Positions 5,312-19,607 of a stretch of DNA of 23,047 nucleotides are shown one piece after another. Numbering within the stretch: the first letter of the stretch is position 1; the number at the start of each line of letters is the position of its first letter. Below the pieces are notes generated by a model, which was given only the letters and a program-made list of their open reading frames with translations, was not told the DNA's origin and did not search any database. The stretch comes from a virus. The position numbers were made by a program, and so were the translations under genes. The stretch is from positions 1 to 23,047 of the IMG/VR virus record IMGVR_UViG_3300037502_001811, one strand, 5' to 3'.

Positions 5312-7694
5312 TTTGTCTTGCCTCCATCCGTGAGACGTTCTGTTGACGATCAACCTGATCAAGGCGCTTCTGCGCCATGTCAGCCCGAAGCATTGCAATG
5401 TTTTCTTGCGACTGGATCCGCGCCTGATTGGCGGCCAACACGTCTTGCGCCTTCTTCTGCTCCAGAGCCAGACGCTGTTGCTCAATCTGATTGTCCATCT
5501 GGTCATTAGCAGCGCGCATCTGAAGCTCCTGCTGCTTCAACGCCACCACAGGATCAGAAGGCTGGCCGTCTTCTCCCGATAGCTGGTTCTGCATGTTCTT
5601 CATCTCTTGCATGAACTCAACTACCTTGATCGCAATCATCCCTTCCTTTTGGATGGCCGAGACCATGCGGTCAGGATCAACGCCATAGTTGCGGAAGATC
5701 TCAGCTTCTACAAACTCCTCAGCCTTAATCCGTACGTGCTCGAGGATGTGCTGTTGCAACAACTGCGCGGCCATGACATTGGCCTCCATCATCGGGCTCA
5801 TACCCATGATTAGGTGCGCTGCAATGTGCGCGTCATGCTGCTGCCCAGCAAAAGCCTTCAACTCCATGCCATTGAGCACCTTGGAGTTCTCAGTCGCCGG
5901 ATCAATTGGCATCTGGTTGCTTTGTGGCTTCAAAATCCCGTCAATGTCACGCACGTTGAGCGCCGCATACACCCGATAGAACGCTTCATAGACGTTGTGC
6001 ATCTGCGGAGCACTCTGGGCAAGCTGCAACTGCGTCTGGGCCAACGTAATACGCTGTGCTGTCGAGAAGATGTTGGGATCCGCCACAGGCAGAACCGCAA
6101 CCATGCTGTTGAAGTCCTTTTTCTTAACCTTGCGACTCGCCCCAGGCACGTCATACGGATATTCCTCAGGCAAATACTCACCAAAGCCCTTCGCTAACAT
6201 CCGAAACTCAATGCTCTGCGCGTAATGCAGCCGCTTGTGGATCGCAGACATGACCATCGACCCACGCTCAAGCAACGCCAGCGTCGTTCCAACCTGCGCC
6301 ATCTGGTTTGCATCGCCAACCTGCATATCCGCAATGCTGGCAAGCCGTCTTCCCGCATCAACCACAAACCCAAGTAGCGCAAAGAGCGTCTGCGACGGTT
6401 CTTTGTACGGCAACGGCATCAACGAGGCAGAAAGTTCCGCGCCTCCCGCGTCAATATCGCGCCATTCACCCGGTTGGATCGGTGTATCGTCGTCCGCGAT
6501 CCGCGCACCACGCGCTTTGAAGCCAGCAGGCAGGTTCGAGAGCGTTCCCGCGTCCAAAAGTTGACGCAATGCAGCCGTTGCGGTCTTCGAGAGCCCACCA
6601 ATCAGGTGAACAAAGCCCAAACCATACGCTCCAGGGCCCTCAACCAGCACGTAATGCACAAAATACTCAATCCGGCGCTTCAGTTCGTCTTCTTTTTCCC
6701 AATTCCGACGAATTCCGACAATCTGACCACTCGTCTCATCGATGGTAACGACGTACGGAAGCTTGATCCCCGTCATTTCGCCATCTTCAGACGTGTCCTC
6801 AAAGCCCAAAATGTCCAAATTGACGTGGAACTCAAGCAAAAAGACCTCTTCGGCCTCGCCCGTGGGCTGAACACCAAGGATTTTGTCCGTGTTCATGCGG
6901 ATCTGGGACGGATTCGTGTCCTGATCCTCTTCCACAACGTCAATATCGCTGTATTCCCCCGCTACCACACGCTTTTTGAACTCGTTGGCGTCCATCGCAA
7001 TACGGTGCGTGATCCGTGAGCACTGCGACATGACGCTCGAACCGGTGTACGGGATGTACAAATCGTCTGCCAACACCAGTTTTGAGACCATCCGGCCCAA
7101 CTGACCGTCGTAATACACCTTCTTGAACACCGAACCACCATATCCAACGTAGAAAAGCGCCTGATCCATCTCCGGCGTGTACTCTTCCATCACCGTTGTG
7201 ATCTGGTAATTCATGAAATCTTGTACGCGCGCGGCCTGCTGAGCCTTGTCCAAGGTCTCTTTGCCCAAAATCTGCGTCCGAACCGGGCCTCCAGCAGGCA
7301 TCAACTCCTTAAAAGCCTGTGCCTGGAACTGCACAATCGACTCTGTGAGCATCGGATGCACCGCACCAGCCGCTCCTCGGAAGGGTTTTGTCCGCTCTTC
7401 AACCTTCAGGCCCAACAAATCAAGGCCCTTGGCATACATCTGCTCCCACTGCTCGCGGCTCGACTTGTCCGCCTCGAACATGTCAAGCAACTCGAGCGAG
7501 ATCGCAGAGAGCTCACCCTCATCAATCACACCAACAAGGTTGTCGTAGAAGTCCACATCGTCTTCTTTGGTGTCGAGCTCAATCGTCGCACCACCATCAG
7601 GCTCAAGAACGATCTCGACATCGGGCATCGGCCCTTCGCTCTCCATCTCGATTTCGATCATCGGAGCAGGATTCACGGCTTTATCTATAGGCAT
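5286..7694 (-). CDS. Portal protein (podovirus-type)
   Basis: This 802-residue protein would form the head vertex ring through which DNA is packaged and ejected. An acidic leader of about 75 residues is followed by the typical portal start SREQWEQMYAKGLDLLGLKV and TKPFRGAAGAVHPMLTESIV. Other familiar segments are QAFKELMPAGGPVRTQILGK, QVGDANQMAQVGTTLALLER and QSIEFRMLAKGFGEYLPEEY. The C-terminal ~130 residues form a Gln-rich charged helix region (barrel or crown type). Length is at the long end for podovirus portals. GAGGAA lies nine bases before the ATG. It sits between the polyvalent protein gene and the DUF6496-like gene. Confidence 0.9.
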   Translation of the reverse strand: MPIDKAVNPAPMIEIEMESEGPMPDVEIVLEPDGGATIELDTKEDDVDFYDNLVGVIDEGELSAISLELLDMFEADKSSREQWEQMYAKGLDLLGLKVEERTKPFRGAAGAVHPMLTESIVQFQAQAFKELMPAGGPVRTQILGKETLDKAQQAARVQDFMNYQITTVMEEYTPEMDQALFYVGYGGSVFKKVYYDGQLGRMVSKLVLADDLYIPYTGSSVMSQCSRITHRIAMDANEFKKRVVAGEYSDIDVVEEDQDTNPSQIRMNTDKILGVQPTGEAEEVFLLEFHVNLDILGFEDTSEDGEMTGIKLPYVVTIDETSGQIVGIRRNWEKEDELKRRIEYFVHYVLVEGPGAYGLGFVHLIGGLSKTATAALRQLLDAGTLSNLPAGFKARGARIADDDTPIQPGEWRDIDAGGAELSASLMPLPYKEPSQTLFALLGFVVDAGRRLASIADMQVGDANQMAQVGTTLALLERGSMVMSAIHKRLHYAQSIEFRMLAKGFGEYLPEEYPYDVPGASRKVKKKDFNSMVAVLPVADPNIFSTAQRITLAQTQLQLAQSAPQMHNVYEAFYRVYAALNVRDIDGILKPQSNQMPIDPATENSKVLNGMELKAFAGQQHDAHIAAHLIMGMSPMMEANVMAAQLLQQHILEHVRIKAEEFVEAEIFRNYGVDPDRMVSAIQKEGMIAIKVVEFMQEMKNMQNQLSGEDGQPSDPVVALKQQELQMRAANDQMDNQIEQQRLALEQKKAQDVLAANQARIQSQENIAMLRADMAQKRLDQVDRQQNVSRMEARQNATQNRQK

Positions 7695-7737: not shown

Positions 7738-10700
7738 TCATTTCAGAACCTTTTTGATGAAGTCCTCTGTACGAACCTCACCGCCTTTTTTGAACGGAAC
7801 ACCCTCCGCGCCAATTCTTCCCGCACCATATTTATCCCAAACTACTCCCGGATGCATCACGTCTTGACCATCTGGTGTCGTTAAAGTGATAGGCCTGTAC
7901 TCGAACCCTGGACCAAGGTCCTTGACCACCTGCTTTAGGTTGTTGGGCAGCTTCTCATACAGCTGAGCTTGGGAAGACTCTGCGCCAGGAAAAGCAACGA
8001 AGTTCTTGCCCATCTGAATTGCCGCAGCAATCACATTCTTTGCCATCAACTGCTGTATGACCTGCGGAGATTCTTCCATACCAACAAAGGATTCCTTGAT
8101 TTTATACTGACCCTCACTGATCCGCTTCATCCACTTGTTTAGCTGTTCTTGGGTCCTTTTTTGCTGCTCTTGAAGTTCTGTAAGCTTTTCTTTTTGTTCT
8201 ATGGTTGGATTGTCTAGGTAGCGTTGGTTTTCAATAGCTGCCTGTTCCGTCAAATTCTGAAGTTTCTTTCCAAGTTCAGCAGCCTTGGGGAGATCCTTTG
8301 TTGGACTTCCACCTAGTGGACCTTTCTTACGTATGTCATCTAACCGGTCAGACTGAAGCTCGTGGACATAGATGCCATCAACTTTCCCTAAATCCGGAAC
8401 ATCGGTTGTGTGCTCCGAATAACGACTGAAAGCGATCTCATTAGGGATCCCTGTTTGCGTAGGCGTTCTACCCAAACCAGAATGCTGGCCTTGATATCCA
8501 AACTGTGCCATTGGCGACTTGGGGTTGTTGTAGGTTTTTTCCAACAACTCCCGCAACCCAGACATGCTTTGCCTAAAGACCTCTTTTACTGTATTTTGGG
8601 TTGGCGAAAAAGCATCTCTAATGTTTGAAGCGGCTTTTGTCCGAAGAGCAAGATCCGAGCCCGACAGCGCCTGTATGTCGTCATAGAGCTTTACTTTGGT
8701 TCCTGGGAAAATGTCGTCTAGATCGTTTATTGCTGACTGCGTTGCTGTTCTAATTGCTGCGTTATAGTCAAAACGCTTAGACAAGTCTTTTTGTTCAGCT
8801 TGAAGAGTTTTGTAAACAGAACTTAATGTTGGGTAGTTGATTGTGTCAACAGCATCTGATAGACGCCCGTAAAGGTTTACCGAAGCTTGAGCGGTATCCA
8901 ATAACCTGTTCGCTTCGACCGATCTCTCTGGTTGGTTAAGGTCACGTAAAAACTCATTTACATTAGCTTTGTAGTTGTTAAACGCATCCGGTGTATTTAA
9001 TAAGTCAGCGTTGATTCCGGCATGGGTCGTATTCTTTAGAGCTTGATACATATCTTTTGCCCGACTCAAACCAGCCTCTGCCTCTGGCGTAGCAAGCTGG
9101 CGAAGATGGATAACCCCTAATGGAGCCTTATAGATGTTATCCATGCTGGCGTAAAACTTATCTGGGTCATTGGGGTCAGGCTTAACGATAGAAGTGCCAT
9201 ACCGAGAAGGATCAAAGTCTTCTTTGATCTTGTTTAAGAGATCAAACGGCGTAATCTTGGCATTGTCAGGAAGATCCTTTAACGCCTCTTTAGCGCGTCC
9301 AATCTCGTAATCCCTAAACTTCCCTTTAAGCTGGTTAAGGAACTGCTCCTTTTGCACCGGTCCAGGTAGCTCAGCGATCATCTTGTCCAGACGACCAACA
9401 AACGGAGACTGAACAAACTCCGCTCCATATTGCGTAGCCGTTGTTTTGGTTGTCGGAATATCTTCAAAAATTCTATTGGCCTTGGCCCCCGGTACGTTGA
9501 TCGCGCCCACCGGCGGCGTCTCCGCTGTCTCATAACTACGCATTAACGCGCGCGCTGACCCTGGGCCAGGGGCCGGGGTCGTCAGAAACTGCGGCATCGG
9601 AGGAATCTTCGCCTCCTCCGCAACACTACCCAAGAACTCCAACGTGTCCCTGGCCGCCTTCGTCTTTGGCACACCAGTGATCTTGGACATCATCTTCCCG
9701 GCTTCGGCACCAGCCTCTGCCACTCCCTCAGGCGTTCCAAACTTGTCACTGGTAATGCCTTGATACAGGCCATACACCGGACCCGCAATCGAACCCGCAG
9801 CACCACGAACGAACGTGTTCAAAAAATCCAAAGGCACATCCACCGCCTCACGAAGTTCAGGCGGAAGAAGACCACGCTGCGGAGCCCTCTCTGCAGGCGG
9901 CGTTCCAGTAAACATCTGCTGGATGTAATCGTCGTCTGTTACTTCCCCACCCTCTTTGAACTGCTTGCCCGTAATCGCAGACACCGTCCCATCCGTGTCA
10001 AAAATAGCAAAATTCCCCGTGGACAACGCTTTGCCACCCGGCAAAAACTGCGCCCCTTTGAACCCTAACAACCGAACGGCTTCACCTTGCTTCTCCTTAG
10101 GAAGCTTACGAATGGACTCATACAAGTCATTGCCCGTGACCGTCGGCCCTTCCGGGATAGGTGTCTTGTTAGCAAACTTCTTCAACTTCAAGGCAAGCGC
10201 TGATGGATACTCTTGCTCCAAAAATAAAATGCTTTTCTTTGGAACATCCAACGGATATACAGCCGCCGCCTCTGGCAAAATTCCTCTTGCTGCTTGACGA
10301 CCTATGGCGCTTTCTGACGCAACCGCAGGAGAATCCGAACCATATAAAGCCCTACCCATATCACTCTTTGGACTCGTCTTGCTCACATCAAAACGACCCT
10401 TGATTTCATCCCCGTAACCCGAATACACACGCATCATCTCCTGCGCGGCTTGTGCCCCTTGGGCCGGGTTCCTCGATTTAATAGCCTGCAACATGGCCCT
10501 CGCGGCATTAGTCTCCGACGGAGCCGCTCCTTCAAAATCCAAAGAAGCCTGCTTCATCGCAAGATACTCATCCATCGTCATGCCCTTAGCCTCACTAGGC
10601 TGCATGGCTAACGAAACACCCGCCCCGGTCCTGCCAAGAAACGCCGCCGCATCCGCAGGACTAATGCCGTACTGCGTTAAAAGATTTCCAATGTTGAACG

Positions 10701-11778
10701 TAGACTTGTCCGCAGGCGGCGTTCCAGTAAACATCTGCTGGATGTAATCGTCCGTGGGCACCTCACCCTCAGGAGGGGATCCCTTCTCACGCTTGCGAAT
10801 GAAGTCGGTGGTCGAAACCTCACCGCCCTTCGCTAACCGACGCTCAGGGTTCTTCGATAAATTTGGATTGGGATACGACGGAACCTCTAGCCGATTAACA
10901 AAAGGAACCTTGGGAAAAGCACCAATTTCCTCCGAAGCACGACTCTCCCTCTTGGCTAACCTATCTAAATCCAAAAAGGGATCTTCTAAGTCCTCATCAT
11001 CATCCTTCGGAAGATCCAAAGGCGTAAAAGGCAACGTCGAAATGTCCCCAGGTTTTGGCTTGTACAAAGGATTGTCATCCGTACCACCAAACAACCGCGC
11101 AACATCATAAGGATCCATACCACGCATGTGCTTGGTAAGCTCCTCCAACGAAATCAACCCGTGCCGATACAAGTTGATCTTTTCCTGCAGACGATCCTCA
11201 GTATCCACCGAAGGCTCTACCTCGCCACCTTCAGCAAACCTCTTCATAAACATCAAATTCGCACCATACTCCGACCGGGGCATCTCCCCCTGACGCGGCA
11301 CCACATACCCCTGCGCCGATAGACGCCCACCAGCAAAAGGCATTGAATACGATCCCTGCCCTACAACCGGCATCTCTACTTCACCACCAGGAGTCTTTAT
11401 CGGAACCCTCTGCGAAAGCATCAACTCATACGCCCTCGAAGGATCCCCACCACCATACTTAACCCCATACTCCGACACATCCCCCTGCCTCGAGACATCA
11501 ACAAAGGGCATCACATTATTCACATTTAACCCAACCCGCCCCTCCGACTCCTCAAGCTTCTTGCCCTTAGAAACAAGGTCCAAGGACAACGGCCCGAGCG
11601 ACGGGTCAGGCAACGCACCCGACATCATCAACTGATCCAACAAGAAACGAGCATCCTCCTGCTCTTTACGCTCCTTGCGTTTACTCTCCGGCAACGCCGA
11701 ATCCTTGCCCTTGTCACTAAAAAGCTTTTCTTCCTCAAGTTGAGCATTCAACGCAGCGTAAAGATCCTTCGCGTTCAC
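7738..11778 (-). CDS. 1346-residue polyvalent protein with repeated GGEV motifs
   Basis: This giant protein has no visible lytic or polymerase motif. Its first ~630 residues are low-complexity and segmented by (F/L)xxGGEV motifs near residues 182, 316, 608 and at the extreme C-terminus (about 1331), three of them followed by DDYIQQM- or DFI-type helices. Residues ~640-1110 are helical (e.g. LSRAKDMYQALKNTTHAGIN). Residues ~1120-1330 contain RYSEHTTDVPDLGKVDGIYV, HELQSDRLDDIRKKG and NVIAAAIQMGKNFVAFPGAE, a divergent form of the EIQSDWHQ...GR domain of phage and ICE polyvalent proteins. Such proteins may be virion-internal and ejected. The GTG start at 11778 overlaps the previous stop (GTGA) and follows GGAGG by six bases. 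Confidence 0.75.
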   Translation of the reverse strand: MNAKDLYAALNAQLEEEKLFSDKGKDSALPESKRKERKEQEDARFLLDQLMMSGALPDPSLGPLSLDLVSKGKKLEESEGRVGLNVNNVMPFVDVSRQGDVSEYGVKYGGGDPSRAYELMLSQRVPIKTPGGEVEMPVVGQGSYSMPFAGGRLSAQGYVVPRQGEMPRSEYGANLMFMKRFAEGGEVEPSVDTEDRLQEKINLYRHGLISLEELTKHMRGMDPYDVARLFGGTDDNPLYKPKPGDISTLPFTPLDLPKDDDEDLEDPFLDLDRLAKRESRASEEIGAFPKVPFVNRLEVPSYPNPNLSKNPERRLAKGGEVSTTDFIRKREKGSPPEGEVPTDDYIQQMFTGTPPADKSTFNIGNLLTQYGISPADAAAFLGRTGAGVSLAMQPSEAKGMTMDEYLAMKQASLDFEGAAPSETNAARAMLQAIKSRNPAQGAQAAQEMMRVYSGYGDEIKGRFDVSKTSPKSDMGRALYGSDSPAVASESAIGRQAARGILPEAAAVYPLDVPKKSILFLEQEYPSALALKLKKFANKTPIPEGPTVTGNDLYESIRKLPKEKQGEAVRLLGFKGAQFLPGGKALSTGNFAIFDTDGTVSAITGKQFKEGGEVTDDDYIQQMFTGTPPAERAPQRGLLPPELREAVDVPLDFLNTFVRGAAGSIAGPVYGLYQGITSDKFGTPEGVAEAGAEAGKMMSKITGVPKTKAARDTLEFLGSVAEEAKIPPMPQFLTTPAPGPGSARALMRSYETAETPPVGAINVPGAKANRIFEDIPTTKTTATQYGAEFVQSPFVGRLDKMIAELPGPVQKEQFLNQLKGKFRDYEIGRAKEALKDLPDNAKITPFDLLNKIKEDFDPSRYGTSIVKPDPNDPDKFYASMDNIYKAPLGVIHLRQLATPEAEAGLSRAKDMYQALKNTTHAGINADLLNTPDAFNNYKANVNEFLRDLNQPERSVEANRLLDTAQASVNLYGRLSDAVDTINYPTLSSVYKTLQAEQKDLSKRFDYNAAIRTATQSAINDLDDIFPGTKVKLYDDIQALSGSDLALRTKAASNIRDAFSPTQNTVKEVFRQSMSGLRELLEKTYNNPKSPMAQFGYQGQHSGLGRTPTQTGIPNEIAFSRYSEHTTDVPDLGKVDGIYVHELQSDRLDDIRKKGPLGGSPTKDLPKAAELGKKLQNLTEQAAIENQRYLDNPTIEQKEKLTELQEQQKRTQEQLNKWMKRISEGQYKIKESFVGMEESPQVIQQLMAKNVIAAAIQMGKNFVAFPGAESSQAQLYEKLPNNLKQVVKDLGPGFEYRPITLTTPDGQDVMHPGVVWDKYGAGRIGAEGVPFKKGGEVRTEDFIKKVLK
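9893..9933. repeat. 41-bp direct repeat, copy 1, within the polyvalent gene
   Basis: This segment is identical to 10712-10752, 819 bp (273 codons) away and in the same frame. It encodes the YIQQMFTGTPPA element that follows a GGEV motif. The exact nucleotide identity, against diverged flanks, suggests recent duplication or gene conversion of a protein module. Confidence 0.9.
10712..10752. repeat. 41-bp direct repeat, copy 2, within the polyvalent gene
   Basis: This is the second copy of the 41-bp repeat at 9893-9933. It encodes the same DDYIQQMFTGTPPA element after the tandem segment GEVPT. It lies in frame with the first copy in the 1346-residue protein. Confidence 0.9.
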
Positions 11779-13055
11779 ATCAAACCTCCACTAGTCGAGG
11801 GGCCCTTCTTAAAGTACTGAGCGATCTCAGGCAACATTCCCATCTCAAAAGCCTTCTCCAACCCAGAAGCACGATAACCCGCCAACTTCTGCGCGCGCTC
11901 CTGATACGCTTGCAACTCCTCCGGATTCATCTCCGGCGCAACAGGACGCTCCGGCTGCGGAGTGGCAAAATTAAATACAGGCGCAGGCTTGTCAAAAGTA
12001 AATTCAGGCTTCTGAAGTGTAAACTGAGGAGCCTGCATATTGAACACCGGCTCCGGTTCACCAAACGGCTTGAGATCCAACACAGGCGCTTGAACATTAA
12101 ACGTAGGAGCCGGAGGAGCATTCCTGACCACCGTGTTCAACTTGTTTATCAAAGTGTTGTAGTGATCAAAAGAGAACCCAGCACGTTGCAGATTGCCTTG
12201 ATACCTCTCCATATCATCTGCCGCACGATTGATGTCCGGAATCACAACCTCAGCCTGACTACGAAGATTCGCCGCCAACTGATCATACGTCTCCGGTGTG
12301 CGACCAAACTGACCCTCATACATCATCCACCAAGGATCTTCACGCATCCGCTGTGCACGTGACGCGTAATCATTCGCCCTATTCATGTTCCTTTGGTAGA
12401 TGTCGTTGTACACATAGTTGTAGTAGTTGGAACTAGCCTCTAAGTTTCCTAGGTCCTGTGCATACGGCCTCTGGTAAAACTCCAACTCTCCCTGCACAAC
12501 ATCAATGGTCGGCTGATACGCCGCAGCACGTGCTTCATATTCCTTGTACTGATTGGCATAGTCCTGATATTGGCGCTCATAGTCAGCATACTGCTGCTCA
12601 TACACCTTTTGCGCCGCTAAAGCCTGCTCTTCATAAGCCCTGGCTCTGTTCTGATAGTCAGCAACCTGCTGCTGATACTGAGCCAACGCCGCGTTGTACG
12701 GATCAACCTGCGTCCGCTGATACTCCTCACCACGCCGGTTGTATTCCTCTAACTCCTGGTTGTACCGAGCTAACGCTGCCTGCTGCTCAGCATTGAATTG
12801 ATCCACAAGCTTGTTATGCTCAGCCGAAGCCAACCCATACTGCTGCTCGTAATCCTTCAACTTCTGGTTGTACTCAGCCACAAGATCGTTGTACTTGTCA
12901 TAGTACGCAGCCGTCTCCTCAATCTTCTTCTGCTCCGAAGGCAAAAGACGATTGAGCACCGACCCCGCAACGCCACCTTCCTGAAACTTGGGCAAACGAT
13001 CAAGGTCCTTCTTCGAGACCGATCTCTTGTCCACAGGTGGCCGCTTGCTTGGCAT
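11775..13055 (-). CDS. Tyr/Gln-rich coiled-coil protein with F-N-x-Q-A-P repeats (putative internal virion protein)
   Basis: This 426-residue protein is unrecognised by family. A basic N-terminus with KFQEGGVAGSVLNRLLP (residues 23-39) is followed by about 200 residues of Tyr/Gln/Glu coiled-coil repeats such as AEYNQKLKDYEQQYGL and YEQQYADYERQYQDYANQYK. Near residues 315-370 come Pro/Phe repeats (TFNVQAPVLDLKPF, PVFNMQAPQFTLQKPEFTF). The C-terminus ends QYFKKGPSTSGGLM. The FQEGGV element matches the GGEV motif of the next protein. It sits between terL and the polyvalent gene, overlapping both by a few bases, so a virion-internal role is plausible but inferred. Confidence 0.65.
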   Translation of the reverse strand: MPSKRPPVDKRSVSKKDLDRLPKFQEGGVAGSVLNRLLPSEQKKIEETAAYYDKYNDLVAEYNQKLKDYEQQYGLASAEHNKLVDQFNAEQQAALARYNQELEEYNRRGEEYQRTQVDPYNAALAQYQQQVADYQNRARAYEEQALAAQKVYEQQYADYERQYQDYANQYKEYEARAAAYQPTIDVVQGELEFYQRPYAQDLGNLEASSNYYNYVYNDIYQRNMNRANDYASRAQRMREDPWWMMYEGQFGRTPETYDQLAANLRSQAEVVIPDINRAADDMERYQGNLQRAGFSFDHYNTLINKLNTVVRNAPPAPTFNVQAPVLDLKPFGEPEPVFNMQAPQFTLQKPEFTFDKPAPVFNFATPQPERPVAPEMNPEELQAYQERAQKLAGYRASGLEKAFEMGMLPEIAQYFKKGPSTSGGLM

Positions 13056-14536
13056 CAGTAATACTCCAGTACCTTGTTCTCATCTTTGGGATCATCACTC
13101 TCATCAGTGCCCAAAGATATAAAATTTCCCGCCCGAAACCGCATCAAAGCCTGCGTCGTCGAGTCCACCAAGTCATCATTGTCTCCGTTCGGAAACGCAG
13201 CACACTCTTCCACCAACTCTTCGGCCCACTCCGTCTCCGGAACCCATACCATCCCAGACTCCAAAATAGGCGCTATCGAGTTCGCCCGAGCAATCTTGTC
13301 CTGCCCCGCCCTGCGGCCCCCAGGCGAGTACATTGTCACCGGAATCCCCATCCGCCGCAACTCCTGCTGCAACGTGATCCCCGTCGCTTTGGCCTCAATC
13401 AAAACATTGTCCGGCTTCCAATACGTGTACTCATCCTTCGCCACACGCTTGAGTTCAGGAAAGTCCCACCGCCCCTTCAACACATTCAACAAAATAATGT
13501 TCGGCCCCGAGTCCGCATCCGGATAAAACACACCCCACGTCGTAATCGCCGAATAGTCCGAAGTCTCCTTCTTACTGTACGCCGTGTCATAACTCTGAAT
13601 GATGTACTCCACCTCCGGCGGCTCCATGTGCGGCCAAACCTTCCACCACTGCCGCTTGAGTATCGCCCCCTCATCATTGGTCGGCTGCTGCTGCCACTGA
13701 GCATTCCACTTGGGCAAACCAATGCTCATCTTCACCGCTTCAAGTTCAGAAAGCTTCCAGTACTCCGGCCACAACGGCTTTCCAGAAGGCAGGATGGCAG
13801 GAAACTCCAATACCTCCCACTTGTCCGCCTTTAACGCTCCCTGCTGCTTGAGCAGTCGTCCAGAAAGATCGTCCGTCTTCCACCGCGTGTTGATCACAAT
13901 AATCGTGCCATTTGGCTGCAACCGCTGACGAGGACCCGACGTATACCAGTTCCAGGTGTTCTCCATCGCCGTCATCGACATCGCATCCTGCTCATCCAAG
14001 ATGTCATCCAGAATGACCACATCACCACCACGGCCCGTCATCGCACCACCCTTACCAATGAAGAACGCCTCCCCACCATGGTTCGTGTCCCACCGGCCGG
14101 CGGCCTTCGAGTCAGCAGACAAGGACATGTCGGGGAAGAGCTCCTTGTACGAGTCTTCCGAAACAAGGTTCCGGATCATCCGGCCAAAGCGCTGCGCTAA
14201 CTCCGCCGTGTGCGAACCAACAATAAGCTTTGACTGAGGGCGCTTGCCCATCAAATACGCAGGAAACAGATAACTGCCCATCTGCGACTTCCCATGCCGA
14301 GGCGGCATCGCAATCATCAACCGCTTGCACTCGCCCGACACAACACGGTCAAGCATCTTCGCAATACGGATATGGTGCGACCCGACAATCATCTCGGGCC
14401 AGACGTACCGGCAGAAGTCAATAAAGGAGCTCGTGGCCTTTTCCCTAGCTGCAATCTGCGCGAGCCGAAGCTCAAGGCGTAGACGTTCGGATTCGACTTC
14501 AGGAGGGACGGCGGAAGGTAGTGTGGGGTCGGCCAT
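13055..14536 (-). CDS. terL: Terminase large subunit (TerL)
   Basis: This 493-residue packaging motor has an N-terminal ATPase and a C-terminal nuclease. Walker A is PPRHGKS at residues 78-84 and Walker B VVILDD at 173-178. The coupling-type IIVINTRWKTDDLSGRL segment follows. The RNase H-like nuclease is marked by QSYDTAYSKK near residue 317, LIEAKATG near 395 and NDDLVDSTTQAL near 464. Length is typical. Its stop overlaps the next start (TGATG). The ATG has no clear Shine-Dalgarno; its leader instead carries the octamer GAGAACTT (plus strand). It is separated from terS by more than 4 kb of accessory DNA. Confidence 0.95.
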   Translation of the reverse strand: MADPTLPSAVPPEVESERLRLELRLAQIAAREKATSSFIDFCRYVWPEMIVGSHHIRIAKMLDRVVSGECKRLMIAMPPRHGKSQMGSYLFPAYLMGKRPQSKLIVGSHTAELAQRFGRMIRNLVSEDSYKELFPDMSLSADSKAAGRWDTNHGGEAFFIGKGGAMTGRGGDVVILDDILDEQDAMSMTAMENTWNWYTSGPRQRLQPNGTIIVINTRWKTDDLSGRLLKQQGALKADKWEVLEFPAILPSGKPLWPEYWKLSELEAVKMSIGLPKWNAQWQQQPTNDEGAILKRQWWKVWPHMEPPEVEYIIQSYDTAYSKKETSDYSAITTWGVFYPDADSGPNIILLNVLKGRWDFPELKRVAKDEYTYWKPDNVLIEAKATGITLQQELRRMGIPVTMYSPGGRRAGQDKIARANSIAPILESGMVWVPETEWAEELVEECAAFPNGDNDDLVDSTTQALMRFRAGNFISLGTDESDDPKDENKVLEYY

Positions 14537-14590
14537 GCCGCAAAGTAACAGAGAACTTTTTTAGTTTCAAATTTTTATAAAACCAGATGC

Positions 14591-14610
14591 CACTTTGATT
14601 TTGCAAAGTG
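14591..14610. repeat. Inverted repeat CACTTTG/CAAAGTG upstream of terL
   Basis: Perfect 7-bp arms (14591-14597 and 14604-14610) flank six bases. It forms one of three adjacent dyads in the terL leader, next to the parS-type site, and may be an operator or hairpin. Confidence 0.6.
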
Positions 14611-14617
14611 ACGGGGG

Positions 14618-14633
14618 TGTTTCACGTGAAACA
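14618..14633. promoter_or_regulatory. Exact bacterial parS (ParB-binding) site
   Basis: The 16-bp palindrome TGTTTCACGTGAAACA is the canonical chromosomal parS sequence bound by ParB/Spo0J. It lies 82 bp upstream of the terL start in non-coding DNA, between two other dyads. No parA or parB gene is in the window, so host ParB would be the likely ligand if the site is used. The match is exact; function in the phage is inference. Confidence 0.75.
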
Positions 14634-14634
14634 T

Positions 14635-14650
14635 GTTAGTGACTACTAAC
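14635..14650. repeat. Inverted repeat GTTAGT/ACTAAC beside parS
   Basis: Perfect 6-bp arms separated by four bases begin two bases after the parS palindrome. It can fold as a small hairpin on either strand. Confidence 0.55.
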
Positions 14651-15054
14651 CAATTCACTTTTGACTGGTAAATATTTGCCTAAAATCGGGCTAAAGCCTC
14701 CGCAGGCCAAGGCCGGTGGCGCGCTCCGCGCGACGCGGCGCGGGGGCCACGGGCCACGGCCAATCGGCGGCGGCACTCCGCCCCCCTCGGGGGCCGGGGG
14801 CCATGGGCCGCGCATGGGGGACCGGGGACCACGGACCACGGACCACGCGACCGGGACCGAGGGCCACGCAACCGGGGCCACGATTCACGCGACACGGGGA
14901 AAGGGCGACGGGCAAAGGGCCGCGATTCGAGCGGCCTAGTTCCCGTTACACGGGGCCATGGCGGCGGGGGCATAGGGCCACATAGGGAAACCCGCGCGGG
15001 GCATGGCGGGGCGGGGAAAGGGCAAGGCGGCGGGGCCGGGTTAAACCTAAGGCG
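14651..15054. other. GC-rich low-complexity non-coding stretch
   Basis: About 400 bases with strong GC bias and many degenerate repeats of the kind GGACCACGG, GGGCCACGG and GGGCCATGG. Open frames here are long on both strands only because the composition is low in stop codons, and their translations are Arg/Pro/Gly runs without protein character. No ribosome sites or conserved start fit. The stretch separates the last accessory terminator from the parS/terL leader. Confidence 0.7.
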
Positions 15055-15081
15055 AAAAAAAACCCGGCACGGGGCCGGGTT
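15055..15081 (-). terminator. Intrinsic terminator after accessory unit 1
   Basis: On the minus strand an 8-bp stem AACCCGGC/GCCGGGTT with a five-base loop runs directly into eight T residues. It lies 19 bases after the stop of the 78-residue gene. Confidence 0.9.
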
Positions 15082-15100
15082 CAGGCGGGGCCGGGAGAGT

Positions 15101-15337
15101 CTAGGCCGCCTCAACGTGAACCCCGCCACGCGGCCCGAGTGTCAAAACGAAATCAGGATATTCGACCACGTCAGACGGGCGCGGGGCAATATGTACCGTC
15201 GCGTCGATTGTCTGACCATATTGGTCTAGTTCACGCGCCACGCGACCGAAGGCGGCCACGGCCCCGCGTTTTGTCTGATACGCGCGCACGTCGTCGAGAG
15301 TATCCGTGCCGATTCGCAAAAAATAAAGGTTTCTCAT
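15101..15337 (-). CDS. 78-residue conserved hypothetical protein
   Basis: This small protein begins MRNLYFLRIGTDTLDDVRAY and ends VLTLGPRGGVHVEAA. Composition suggests a compact alpha/beta fold with strands NLYFLRIG, IDATVHIA and PDFVLTLG. Its ATG overlaps the stop of the 60-residue gene (TAATG) and is preceded by GAGGGGG seven bases upstream, so the pair is translationally coupled. A longer open frame upstream is rejected because it would run inside that gene. Function is unknown; the two genes form accessory unit 1. Confidence 0.8.
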   Translation of the reverse strand: MRNLYFLRIGTDTLDDVRAYQTKRGAVAAFGRVARELDQYGQTIDATVHIAPRPSDVVEYPDFVLTLGPRGGVHVEAA

Positions 15338-15519
15338 TATTCGGCCCCCTCTTCGTCGAATCGCGGGCTCAATTCGTTCGCGTCGAGCATATCGAGCACG
15401 TCGGCGGCGCTCATATATTTGAGCGCGCAAAGTAACAGATGATCGGCCGACACTCGGCCACTCTCGACTAAGTCGAGCGCATAATCGCGCGCGTTATCGT
15501 GGAAGTGATTTTCGTTCAT
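15337..15519 (-). CDS. 60-residue conserved hypothetical protein
   Basis: This acidic helical protein begins MNENHFHDNARDYALDLVES and continues GRVSADHLLLCALKYMSAAD, then DMLDANELSPRF. The pattern ARDYALDLVE..........LL.ALKYMS..DV.DMLD.NELSPRF is familiar from small proteins in diverse phages and has no known function. It is first in accessory unit 1, with promoter-like TTGAAC-16-TATCGT, a 5' hairpin and the ATACTTTAGAAAGG leader before the ATG. Confidence 0.8.
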   Translation of the reverse strand: MNENHFHDNARDYALDLVESGRVSADHLLLCALKYMSAADVLDMLDANELSPRFDEEGAE

Positions 15520-15639: not shown

Positions 15640-16725
15640 TTACTCGACCATGTCGAGAATTTTCCCGGCCTCAGTTTCAAGGTCTACCCGGTCGGCGGTC
15701 CACGGAATTGATTTCGCGTATGCGGTCGCGCCCGTTACCGTGTCCCATAGCGTCTCGATCGGGCGGCCCTCTTCGGCCTCATGGGCCGCCTTGATTCGCA
15801 CGGCCACGCGTGGGCCGAATCGGTTCGCTAAAAACGCGTCGACTTTATCGATTTTAGACTCGCGCGCGGCTTTTAATACCGCGTTAACGTTGGCCGCGCT
15901 CGACTGTGAATAGGCGATCAATGCGGGGGTCACCTCTTCCACAAAACGATCGGGCGCGCTCGCCGTATGACGCAGGCTAATTTCCTCCAGTTCATGAGCC
16001 CCCCAGACGATACGATTCGAGCAAACGTAATCAAAAAGAAACGTCTTTACGCGAAGGGCCCCGGCCCCGACTTCGGAATTGCTGACAAAAAACCCGCGCG
16101 CGAGTGTGCCCGTCTGGCCGTCGCGGCGACCGGGCATTTCGATGCGGTTTTCTTCGTCGGCCAGAAAGACGAAACAATCGCGATCGCCCGCGTAGAGTGT
16201 CGTATTTTCCCGGTCTACTTCGACGCGTTTCCCGAAAATCCCCGGAACGCGGAAATCCCCGTTCACCCCGTCGCCGAATCGGTCGATCAAGGCGCGGATT
16301 ACGTCAGAATTCCAGATTCGGCCATACCGGGGGCCGGTCATTGCTCTAATTTGATCGGAACCATTGCGAGACAGTAAGACCCCCGTATCTTGCGCGTCGC
16401 GGGTTACTTGAAAACCATAATTAAGACAATCCGCGACCAATGGCGCGGGCAATTCCCGAAGATACGCGGCGGGCGCGCCAATGAGGTTCGCGGCTTGACC
16501 GAAAGCCCAATTAGTCGGGGCGTACGCGTGGCCGTTCGGCCCCTCGATCATGAGCCCCGCATTGTCGTCAGTCGGTACGGCGCGCAATTGACGCGACGAA
16601 ACGACGGCGGCGCGAGAAATCGTGCGTTGAATTTCCATGGCCGCAAGCATGGCGGGAAGTGAGGTAAACCGCTCTTCGGCGGGGCGTGTCGCCCATTGGT
16701 GGTGGGCTTGCATTAGTGTAGTCAT
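15640..16725 (-). CDS. DUF932-family protein
   Basis: This 361-residue protein matches the plasmid/phage DUF932 pattern. An N-terminal helical part contains NWAFGQAANLIGAPAAYLRE near residues 72-91. Then come DQIRAMTGPRYGRIWNSDVI near 123-142, a central barrel with GFFVSNSEVGAGALRVKTFL near 211-230, and CSNRIVWG near 235. A helical C-terminus ends ETEAGKILDMVE. DUF932 proteins are common on plasmids and phages and their role is not established. The gene forms its own transcription unit with the shared ATACTCTAGAAAGG leader and a private terminator. Its GC-rich codon use resembles its accessory neighbours rather than the head genes. Confidence 0.85.
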   Translation of the reverse strand: MTTLMQAHHQWATRPAEERFTSLPAMLAAMEIQRTISRAAVVSSRQLRAVPTDDNAGLMIEGPNGHAYAPTNWAFGQAANLIGAPAAYLRELPAPLVADCLNYGFQVTRDAQDTGVLLSRNGSDQIRAMTGPRYGRIWNSDVIRALIDRFGDGVNGDFRVPGIFGKRVEVDRENTTLYAGDRDCFVFLADEENRIEMPGRRDGQTGTLARGFFVSNSEVGAGALRVKTFLFDYVCSNRIVWGAHELEEISLRHTASAPDRFVEEVTPALIAYSQSSAANVNAVLKAARESKIDKVDAFLANRFGPRVAVRIKAAHEAEEGRPIETLWDTVTGATAYAKSIPWTADRVDLETEAGKILDMVE

Positions 16726-17149: not shown

Positions 17150-17842
17150 TTAATCCCGCCCGCAGTCGCCCGCGACATGGTGCCGAAGCATAGACCCCGG
17201 CGGGAGTGAGCGCGCGAATGAGCGCACGGCCTCAGCGTCATTCGCGGCCCCGCTCTTACGGGTTCCATGCCACTGAATGGCCGTCGGCCCGCTCGACGCA
17301 TAGCACCCGCCCGGAGTGTCACGGCCTACCCGATTTTTACTCGGCCCATGGGCGACAAAAACAATGACGAAATCACGGTCGCCCCGCGCGCATAGTGGGC
17401 GGCCATTCCCGCATTGCATACAGGTGAAATCGTCGGACAATTCAGCGGGGCATTGCACGAATTTGACGCCCTTATACTCCACGCCCCCGCGCCAATCAGT
17501 ACCGACCGGGGCGGCGACTACGGCGGGGCGGCCAATCGACCACGCGGACACGGCCGAATCCATGTCGTCGCAAGACGCATTAATTACCGTTTGGCCCGCC
17601 TTTGCGACGGGCAACGATGCGGCGTCAAAATGCGAATATGTCCACGCGACGCCCCCGCGCGGCACGGCCTCGAGTACGGCGGCCATGTACTCCGCGTCGA
17701 TTTCGTCGGCCCCGGTCTCAGGCGTCGGATGTAAGGCGCACGTCTTCGGACACGTTGAATAGGTATCAACGGCCCCGGCCCGGTACGTAACGGCAATCGG
17801 CCCGGTCTTTCTGTTACTGCTAACGGCTACAGTTTTAAGCAT
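17150..17842 (-). CDS. Cys-rich phage protein, DUF7227-like
   Basis: This 230-residue protein begins MLKTVAVSSNRKTGPIAVTY and has clustered cysteines: STCPKTCALHP (residues ~29-39), CPAELSDDFTCMQCGNGRPL with CARG (~133-156), GGCYASSG, and GDCGRD at the end. The order S.NRKTGPI.V......TCP.TC, then a C..CG...C segment followed by VIVFVAHG, matches a phage family assigned from memory to DUF7227. The cysteines could bind zinc or an iron-sulfur cluster; no activity is known. It is the first gene of accessory unit 3, with a promoter that overlaps the previous terminator hairpin. Confidence 0.75.
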   Translation of the reverse strand: MLKTVAVSSNRKTGPIAVTYRAGAVDTYSTCPKTCALHPTPETGADEIDAEYMAAVLEAVPRGGVAWTYSHFDAASLPVAKAGQTVINASCDDMDSAVSAWSIGRPAVVAAPVGTDWRGGVEYKGVKFVQCPAELSDDFTCMQCGNGRPLCARGDRDFVIVFVAHGPSKNRVGRDTPGGCYASSGPTAIQWHGTRKSGAANDAEAVRSFARSLPPGSMLRHHVAGDCGRD

Positions 17843-18560: not shown

Positions 18561-19009
18561 CCGCCCCCTGACAAATGATGCGCGACGGTAGCCCACGGCA
18601 CGGCGGCCATGTTCCAGCGCTCGAGCGGCGGGGCCTCTACCCCGGCCATCAGCAAGGCCTCGGCCTGATGCCCCCCATACAGAAGTAATTCAGCCTTTTT
18701 AACTGAGCGCGTGGCCGGGGGGTGATACTCGACCAAAATGTACGTCGGGCATTCCATGCTCGCATGCTTCAAATGGAAGGCGATTTGGTGGGGGCTCAGA
18801 TTCACCTTTTTGCCCTTCGACACTACCTTCAATTCGACCATCACAAACTTGCCTACAGGGCGCGGCCCGAAGGCGATCAGACAATCAGGAATCCCAAGGC
18901 CTACGCGCGACTCGAGCCGAGTAATAAAAACCCCCGGCAGATTCTCCCGGATGCGTTGATACAGGGCGCTCTCAGGCTTCAGACTCTTTCCCCTCGTCCT
19001 CGGCCCCAT
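18557..19009 (-). CDS. PD-(D/E)XK nuclease (VRR-NUC-like)
   Basis: This ~150-residue protein has the PD-(D/E)XK core: RVGLGIPDCLIAFG with PD at residues 41-42, then FVMVELKVVSKGK with E59 and K61 forming the ExK pair, and a trailing LSPHQIAFH helix with the Gln typical of VRR-NUC-type phage nucleases. The N-terminal SALYQRIRENLP helix fits the family. It probably cuts or resolves DNA during recombination, replication or packaging; which one is not known. The start is uncertain (ATG at 19009 chosen, no good ribosome site), and it overlaps the end of terS by 38 bases. Confidence 0.8.
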   Translation of the reverse strand: MGPRTRGKSLKPESALYQRIRENLPGVFITRLESRVGLGIPDCLIAFGPRPVGKFVMVELKVVSKGKKVNLSPHQIAFHLKHASMECPTYILVEYHPPATRSVKKAELLLYGGHQAEALLMAGVEAPPLERWNMAAVPWATVAHHLSGGG

Positions 19010-19607
19010 TCTCAACCATAAAAGGCGGGTCTTTCTCTTCGGTGATGTCTTTCGCCTCTACGTCCAAAATCGCCTGGGGCGGCGGCCCACCGTACAAGCG
19101 CTTGATTTCCTCGAGTTTCTTCTCTACTTCTTCTTTGCTCATGGAATCAATCGTGCCGTGCCTGATTTCCTTGCGTTCGATGTAAATCGTTCCCAAGGCC
19201 TGCCCTCGACGGTACTCTGCCTGCACCGCCGCACCAAAAGCCCCGGCGGCCAAGGCCGCGTCGCGTATGGTCTGCATATCCCGCATGTGCCGCTCGAAGG
19301 TCGTTCCGTACTTTGCGGCCAACTCGGCCCTGTACTCCTGAATCGCGGCCACGATGTGCGGGGAGATATCCGGATTGGTCAGACGCCACGCCCAAACCTT
19401 CGCGCTTTTCGGGTTGTATCCTGCCCGTATGGCGCACTCTTTCATCGTCACGGCCCCATCGCCGCTGACCAGTTCCTGCACAAACGTCCATTCCTTCTGA
19501 GTCAACTTCTTCTTTTGCTTCTTCAAAGGGGCCACTTGCGTGGTCAACCTCTTCTGCAATTTATCCGGAAGCACCGGCGGCACGTGCCAAACGTCTTTGT
19601 ACGTCAT
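18972..19607 (-). CDS. terS: Terminase small subunit (TerS)
   Basis: This 211-residue protein would recognise the phage packaging site and load TerL. A Lys-rich linker is followed by KLTQKEWTFVQELVSGDGAV and MKECAIRAGYNPKSAKVWAW, the helix-turn-helix pattern of Terminase_2-type small subunits. Helical oligomerisation segments come next (KYGTTFERHMRDMQTIRDAA, AAVQAEYRRGQALGTIYIER), then an acidic tail. The ATG follows GGGGG by four bases and is eight bases after the previous stop. It lies downstream of the 720-base non-coding region, where a packaging site could be. Confidence 0.85.
   Translation of the reverse strand: MTYKDVWHVPPVLPDKLQKRLTTQVAPLKKQKKKLTQKEWTFVQELVSGDGAVTMKECAIRAGYNPKSAKVWAWRLTNPDISPHIVAAIQEYRAELAAKYGTTFERHMRDMQTIRDAALAAGAFGAAVQAEYRRGQALGTIYIERKEIRHGTIDSMSKEEVEKKLEEIKRLYGGPPPQAILDVEAKDITEEKDPPFMVENGAEDEGKESEA

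Follow-up and report, generated by a model that had tools for sequence, protein, structure and literature searches.

Host-type parS sites beside the terminase gene of HTVC023P-like aquatic podoviruses

The forms of parS, the ParB/Spo0J box, listed for bacterial chromosomes are TGTTNCACGTGAAACA in Bacillus and Corynebacterium, t/cGTTt/cCACGTGAAAca in Caulobacter, TGTTCCACGTGGAACA in Pseudomonas and TGTTCCACGTGGAACG in Myxococcus (PMC7022226 Table 1). According to PMC9437464, which cites Meijer et al. 2005, the genome of the virulent phage phi29 becomes entrapped in spores through the action of Spo0J. The phi29 genome (L344) holds four exact copies of TGTTTCACGTGGAACA, at 10445-10460, 15903-15918, 17243-17258 and 18760-18775, where the expectation even at three mismatches is 0.36 matches. 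The copy at 17243 directly follows the packaging ATPase gene 16 and thus adjoins a packaging gene, as does the site described below, and phage B103 has two parS sites. Meijer et al. 2005 reportedly tie phi29 spore entrapment to parS sites. With this precedent, which the earlier note did not mention, the principle that a host-type parS can recruit host ParB is already known. The new elements are the occurrence of parS in HTVC023P-like aquatic phages, its preference for the neighbourhood of terL with relocation into coding DNA, and its wide occurrence among viral contigs. A paper on the HTVC023P type and one on the HTVC027P transcriptome mention neither parS nor ParB, and no mention of host-type parS in these aquatic phages was found in a literature search that left most subscription papers and preprints outside.

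The DNA analysed, hereafter the window, is an entire virus record of 23,047 bases and represents a genome fragment. Its genes place it among the aquatic podoviruses, as a relative of Pelagibacter phages HTVC023P and HTVC027P: the terL, portal, GroES and capsid genes are related and stand in the order shared with HTVC023P/HTVC027P-like genomes (terS - gap - terL - long genes - portal - GroES - capsid). The terL product is 65% identical to that of lake phage DSL-LC04 and 50-55% identical to those of Pelagibacter phages HTVC027P and HTVC023P. In genome collections terL relatives occur only in two metagenome bins of different phyla (Verrucomicrobia and Armatimonadetes), which are probably mis-binned phage contigs; the two phyla being unrelated, no host was assigned to the window by this route. 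A 67-aa protein encoded at 20806-21009 matches the zinc ribbon of the nucleotide-reductase repressor NrdR and lacks the remainder of that protein.

An exact chromosomal form of parS, the perfect 16-bp palindrome TGTTTCACGTGAAACA, lies at 14618-14633, confirming the earlier note, which had reported it in non-coding DNA before terL. It is separated by 81 bases from the terL start at 14536, upstream of that gene, within a non-coding stretch of about 520 bp bounded by the hairpin at 15060-15082 and by terL, the first gene of the block downstream of parS. The elements and genes around it are the following.

7738-13055, minus strand: two long genes after terL, of 426 and 1346 aa, with no parS inside them in the window
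13055-14536, minus strand: terL, terminase large subunit (Pfam Terminase_6N/6C; PHROG 38, E=1e-112)
14564-14582, minus strand: AT-rich block TTTTATAAAAATTTGAAAC near the terL start, kept with small changes in the alignment of the window's clade
14589-14612, minus strand: hairpin GTCACTTTGCAAAATCAAAGTGGC between parS and terL, whose sequence is not conserved across clades
14610-14617, minus strand: C-run CCCCCGTC, conserved in alignments, directly after parS on the terL side
14683-14697, minus strand: block GCTTTAGCCCGATTT upstream of parS, conserved in alignments and present also in L125, a relative without parS
15060-15082, minus strand: terminator-like hairpin followed by a T run
18972-19607, minus strand: terS-like terminase small subunit (PHROG 51, E=3.9e-10), about 4.4 kb upstream of terL

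The upstream transcription unit may end at the hairpin at 15060-15082, in which case terL may be served by its own promoter within 14537-15059, and the AT-rich block is a possible late promoter region. A sigma-70 promoter at the site was sought in 14400-15200 and none was found. The palindrome is followed by no T run and has no Rfam match, which discards a terminator or RNA element. Between the terminator-like hairpin and parS, positions 14700-15050 form a GC-rich, low-complexity non-coding stretch with degenerate GGGCCACGG-like repeats, resembling the GGGCCGTGG repeats of relatives L131-L137; it could be a packaging or recombination signal.

Expected counts and control palindromes rule out a chance occurrence of the 16-mer. 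Base composition predicts 3.9e-6 copies of exact TGTTTCACGTGAAACA in the window, and the previous estimate, of the order of one in 10^5, was of the right order. A search for further copies, also proposed earlier, yielded none: the site is the sole match at up to three mismatches in the 23,047-base record, 0.14 being expected at that looseness. Scanning the viral collection retrieved at least 120 loci with exact TGTTTCACGTGAAACA and at least 120 with exact TGTTCCACGTGGAACA, and two control palindromes of the same letters had 1 and 3 matches in viral contigs. Relatives selected by terL alone (61 loci) contain 36 parS-like sites at up to two mismatches in 691 kb, against 0.14 expected. Among whole records (46 terL-selected ones plus four named phages), 25 of 50 carry the site at no more than one mismatch to TGTTYCACGTGRAACA, and a reversed-palindrome control was found in none of the same 50.

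The 36 sites are invariant at positions 2-4, 6, 8-11 and 13-15 and vary at positions 1, 5, 12 and 16, with a single change at position 7 in one site. The phage forms match the consensus listed for Bacillus, Caulobacter, Burkholderia, Pseudomonas and Myxococcus (PMC7022226 Table 1). HTVC027P, whose host in the cultured pair is Pelagibacter HTCC1062, an alphaproteobacterium, carries CGTTTCACGTGAAACA at 16412 of MN698241, and this fits the Caulobacter form. The element is thus a 16-bp palindrome that changes almost only at the known degenerate bases of parS and that is kept or re-created in relatives, which argues for a host-type parS under selection. Conservation, on which the earlier reading had been made to depend, holds in one respect and fails in another: the site is kept within the clade of the window, and 23 of 55 scorable records lack it at up to one mismatch within the sequence present in each record. 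The siteless records include, at the same threshold, six of 45-62 kb and the complete HTVC023P, DSL-LC04 and 023Pt_psg01. Because so many records, some of them complete, do without it, the site is dispensable. A search of relatives without the site for half sites or degraded parS found nothing systematic.

The site occupies two kinds of location. In the window's clade it lies at -57 to -180 of terL, flanked in the alignment by conserved blocks, GCTTTAGCCCGATTT upstream and CCCCC plus the AT-rich block downstream. In a sister clade (L150-L155, L159, L161-L165 and L169) parS is found inside the gene next after terL, 0.4-2.1 kb downstream of terL, the position corresponding to 7738-13055 of the window, and the region upstream of terL keeps similar blocks without parS. 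C-runs resembling CCCCCGTC are likewise present in relatives with no parS at the upstream position. In all three examples that were scanned (3/3), the gene bearing the site in the sister clade has a transglycosylase SLT domain at its start. The site falls there at residues ranging from 132 to 683 and is invariably read as V-[S/P]-R-[E/G]-T, and the alignment columns at the site are nearly fixed among variable neighbouring columns. A switch from TTT/AAA to TCC/GGA costs two residue changes (VSRET to VPRGT) and keeps the DNA palindrome. Of the 28 times that V[SP]R[EG]T appears in long frames, some of them in motif-picked loci, 26 are spelled by exact parS forms (13 of 14 agree in the terL-selected loci alone), at an expectation from codon use in these genes of about 2e-4 to 7e-4 per site. 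This spelling rules out the protein motif VSRET/VPRGT as the selected entity. As judged from codon choice, which keeps parS at differing protein positions, selection acts on the DNA motif itself.

At least ten changes between the states 'upstream', 'in gene' and 'none' are required on the terL tree. By this phylogenetic reading parS has been gained or moved near terL repeatedly, and is useful, mobile and dispensable. The relative L125, whose terL is 93% identical, retains these upstream blocks, and unrelated sequence stands where parS would be. L135, L136, L172 and L174 lack the site inside a clade that otherwise bears it; in these near-identical loci the parS stretch upstream of terL is swapped for other sequence, apparently coding for the tail end of a small HNH-like protein rich in Cys and His. 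L054 (925 and 4730) and L083 (3096 and 7121) combine an upstream site with one inside the gene, as a form intermediate between the two clades might do. Repression of terL through an operator, suggested in the earlier note, is not supported as a general role, the sister clade having its site in the next gene downstream. Since that clade also retains the upstream blocks without parS, comparison of the two arrangements indicates that the site is neither a terL operator nor part of the terL promoter.

A broader form of late-gene control has to be weighed against the placement of the sites. Among carriers with an HTVC-like terL, 18 of 41 sites fall within 200 bp upstream of terL, where 1.07 would be expected; four of those loci are near-copies, which leaves about 15 independent cases. 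ParB loaded at parS could spread over the terL region and hold back late transcription or packaging until replicated genomes exhaust or dilute it. This would suit the placement, and P. aeruginosa ParB is reported to lower expression beside parS (PMC7022226). The in-gene site of the L150-L169 clade speaks against it, as does the finding that loss of Spo0J in B. subtilis left genes beside parS unchanged (PMC7022226). As ParB spreading over kilobases could still reach terL, the in-gene sites only weaken this explanation, which we regard as unlikely. The same adjacency to packaging genes is compatible with a role in packaging itself. ParB-parS recruits SMC in bacteria (PMC10197239), and SMC so loaded might separate or align replicated phage genomes before packaging that starts near terL. 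Against this stands the GC skew, which follows gene strand and was therefore uninformative on the replication origin, giving no usable origin signal; we hold the SMC explanation to be improbable.

The number of sites bears on a further proposal. The window has one site and its relatives have one to three per genome. A lytic phage makes many genome copies, and one site per copy would presumably exceed the few sites of the host, so that replicated phage genomes could act as a decoy, titrating ParB off the chromosome and blocking host segregation or cell division. Many sites per genome would pay for such a decoy, whereas one to three is the usual number in these phages, and titration gives no reason for placement near terL. 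We give the decoy little credence. Denser arrangements occur elsewhere. Five exact parS copies are clustered beside terL in L016 (2657-3444) and in L043 (10535-11462), with no ParB_N match in either locus, and resemble a small chromosomal centromere; the terL of L043 is about 40% identical to those of Roseobacter phages CRP-901/902. L295 has five TGTTCCACGTGGAACA copies between 4324 and 10457, spaced by about 1-2 kb, mostly intergenic and near helicase and glycosyltransferase genes.

No partition or integration genes were detected in this family. Profile searches of the window and of relatives up to 62 kb, positive in control genomes, came back empty: ParB_N was absent from 33 records, AAA_31 (ParA family) from 28, HTH_ParB from 26 and the tyrosine phage integrase from 22. 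ParB_N is also unmatched in 48 of 50 sampled TGTTTCACGTGAAACA carriers searched whole, many of which are short fragments. The absence of parAB from the window, stated at the outset, thus extends to relatives of up to 62 kb. The lack of parAB, HTH_ParB and integrase in the records searched excludes a partition system of the phage's own and leaves a phage-plasmid in the usual sense, another early option, unsupported. The palindrome could in principle be the operator of a phage-encoded regulator that shares the ParB box by coincidence, and closely spaced palindrome pairs in intergenic gaps of some phages would agree with this. They are seen in L009, a phi29-like podovirus found by motif alone (capsid, connector and Gp16 by Pfam), with six sites at up to one mismatch, its parS-like sites lying in close intergenic pairs 24-38 bp apart (5525-5566, 12130-12169 and also 15314-15367); the nearest relatives of L009 in the phage collection come from human faecal samples. 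Such a regulator is very improbable, given that variation is largely confined to known parS degenerate bases, that no HTH_ParB or ParB_N gene exists among the family records searched, and that the same forms occur in phi29, whose use of them in segregation is reported.

A selected host-type parS, together with the absence of ParA, ParB and HTH_ParB genes from the relatives, points to host ParB as the probable reader, and recruitment of host ParB, already put forward in the earlier note, is the best reading of these genomes. We consider it likely that host ParB binds the site in vivo. We privilege the hypothesis, with some reserve, that the 16-mer works as a host-type parS, loading the host ParB clamp onto the phage genome for segregation or carriage; the phage would probably ride the chromosome-sorting machinery of its host, as phi29 is known to do. 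Following established ParB biology, host ParB-CTP would nucleate on the phage parS and slide along neighbouring phage DNA, and the loaded ParB would bring ParA and SMC contacts to the phage genome. Phage genomes could in this way be placed within the cell and passed on at division much as an additional chromosome origin would be. The gain would likely be that the infecting genome is retained, and held with the nucleoid, during slow or deferred infection of slow-growing aquatic hosts, in the manner of phi29 with Spo0J but without spores. That segregation or carriage is the main benefit is plausible, though we lean slightly towards doubt on this part. The bias towards terL is the chief point that simple segregation leaves unexplained, and late-gene control or SMC action before packaging fits it better. 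The smaller number of sites (one to three per genome against four in phi29) and their dispensability also count against carriage by ParB.

More tentatively, hitching by means of host-type parS could be a common, undescribed strategy of several virulent aquatic phage lineages on non-sporulating bacteria, the site beside terL being favoured as ParB/SMC loading would also serve genome handling before packaging. If host ParB acts in this way, lytic phages of very abundant aquatic bacteria might persist through division without integration or partition genes and so reach carrier states by a simple route. What is known for a single spore-forming host would then apply to many environmental phages as well, and phage parS sites may be of use in predicting which hosts have ParABS. 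The idea is directly testable in the cultured pair of HTVC027P and Pelagibacter HTCC1062.

Compared with the chromosomal parS of bacteria, the site is the identical 16-bp palindrome with the same tolerated variants, here on a virus and with no parAB beside it. The closest parallel is the phi29 family (Salasmaviridae), in which host-type parS is present on the phage genome, partly in genes, with host ParB as the reported actor in phi29. Host-type parS is conserved among the relatives of the window as in phi29, and the TGTTTCACGTGGAACA variant of phi29 occurs among them too. Like virulent phi29, the window, although a fragment, has no phage ParB or ParA and no integrase, in agreement with relatives up to 62 kb. 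It differs in belonging to an HTVC023P-like podovirus lineage with genomes of about 60 kb, and in the count and placement of sites, which are terL-biased, one in the window and one to three in its relatives, compared with four in phi29 and two in B103. The host of phi29 is spore-forming, whereas that of the window is probably non-spore-forming, the cultured cousin's being Pelagibacter; spore entrapment therefore cannot be the use here. Phage-plasmids with their own ParABS, such as P1 (reviewed in PMC11652158), share a centromere-like site on the phage genome but code for partition proteins and rely on sites that are theirs alone; none were found in the window or in the relatives searched. Phage DNA likewise bears sites for host cell-cycle proteins in the case of Spo0A in phi29 and of CtrA in alphaproteobacterial phages (PMC9437464). 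Spo0A and CtrA are transcription regulators (PMC9437464), while the host protein recruited here would be a segregation clamp.
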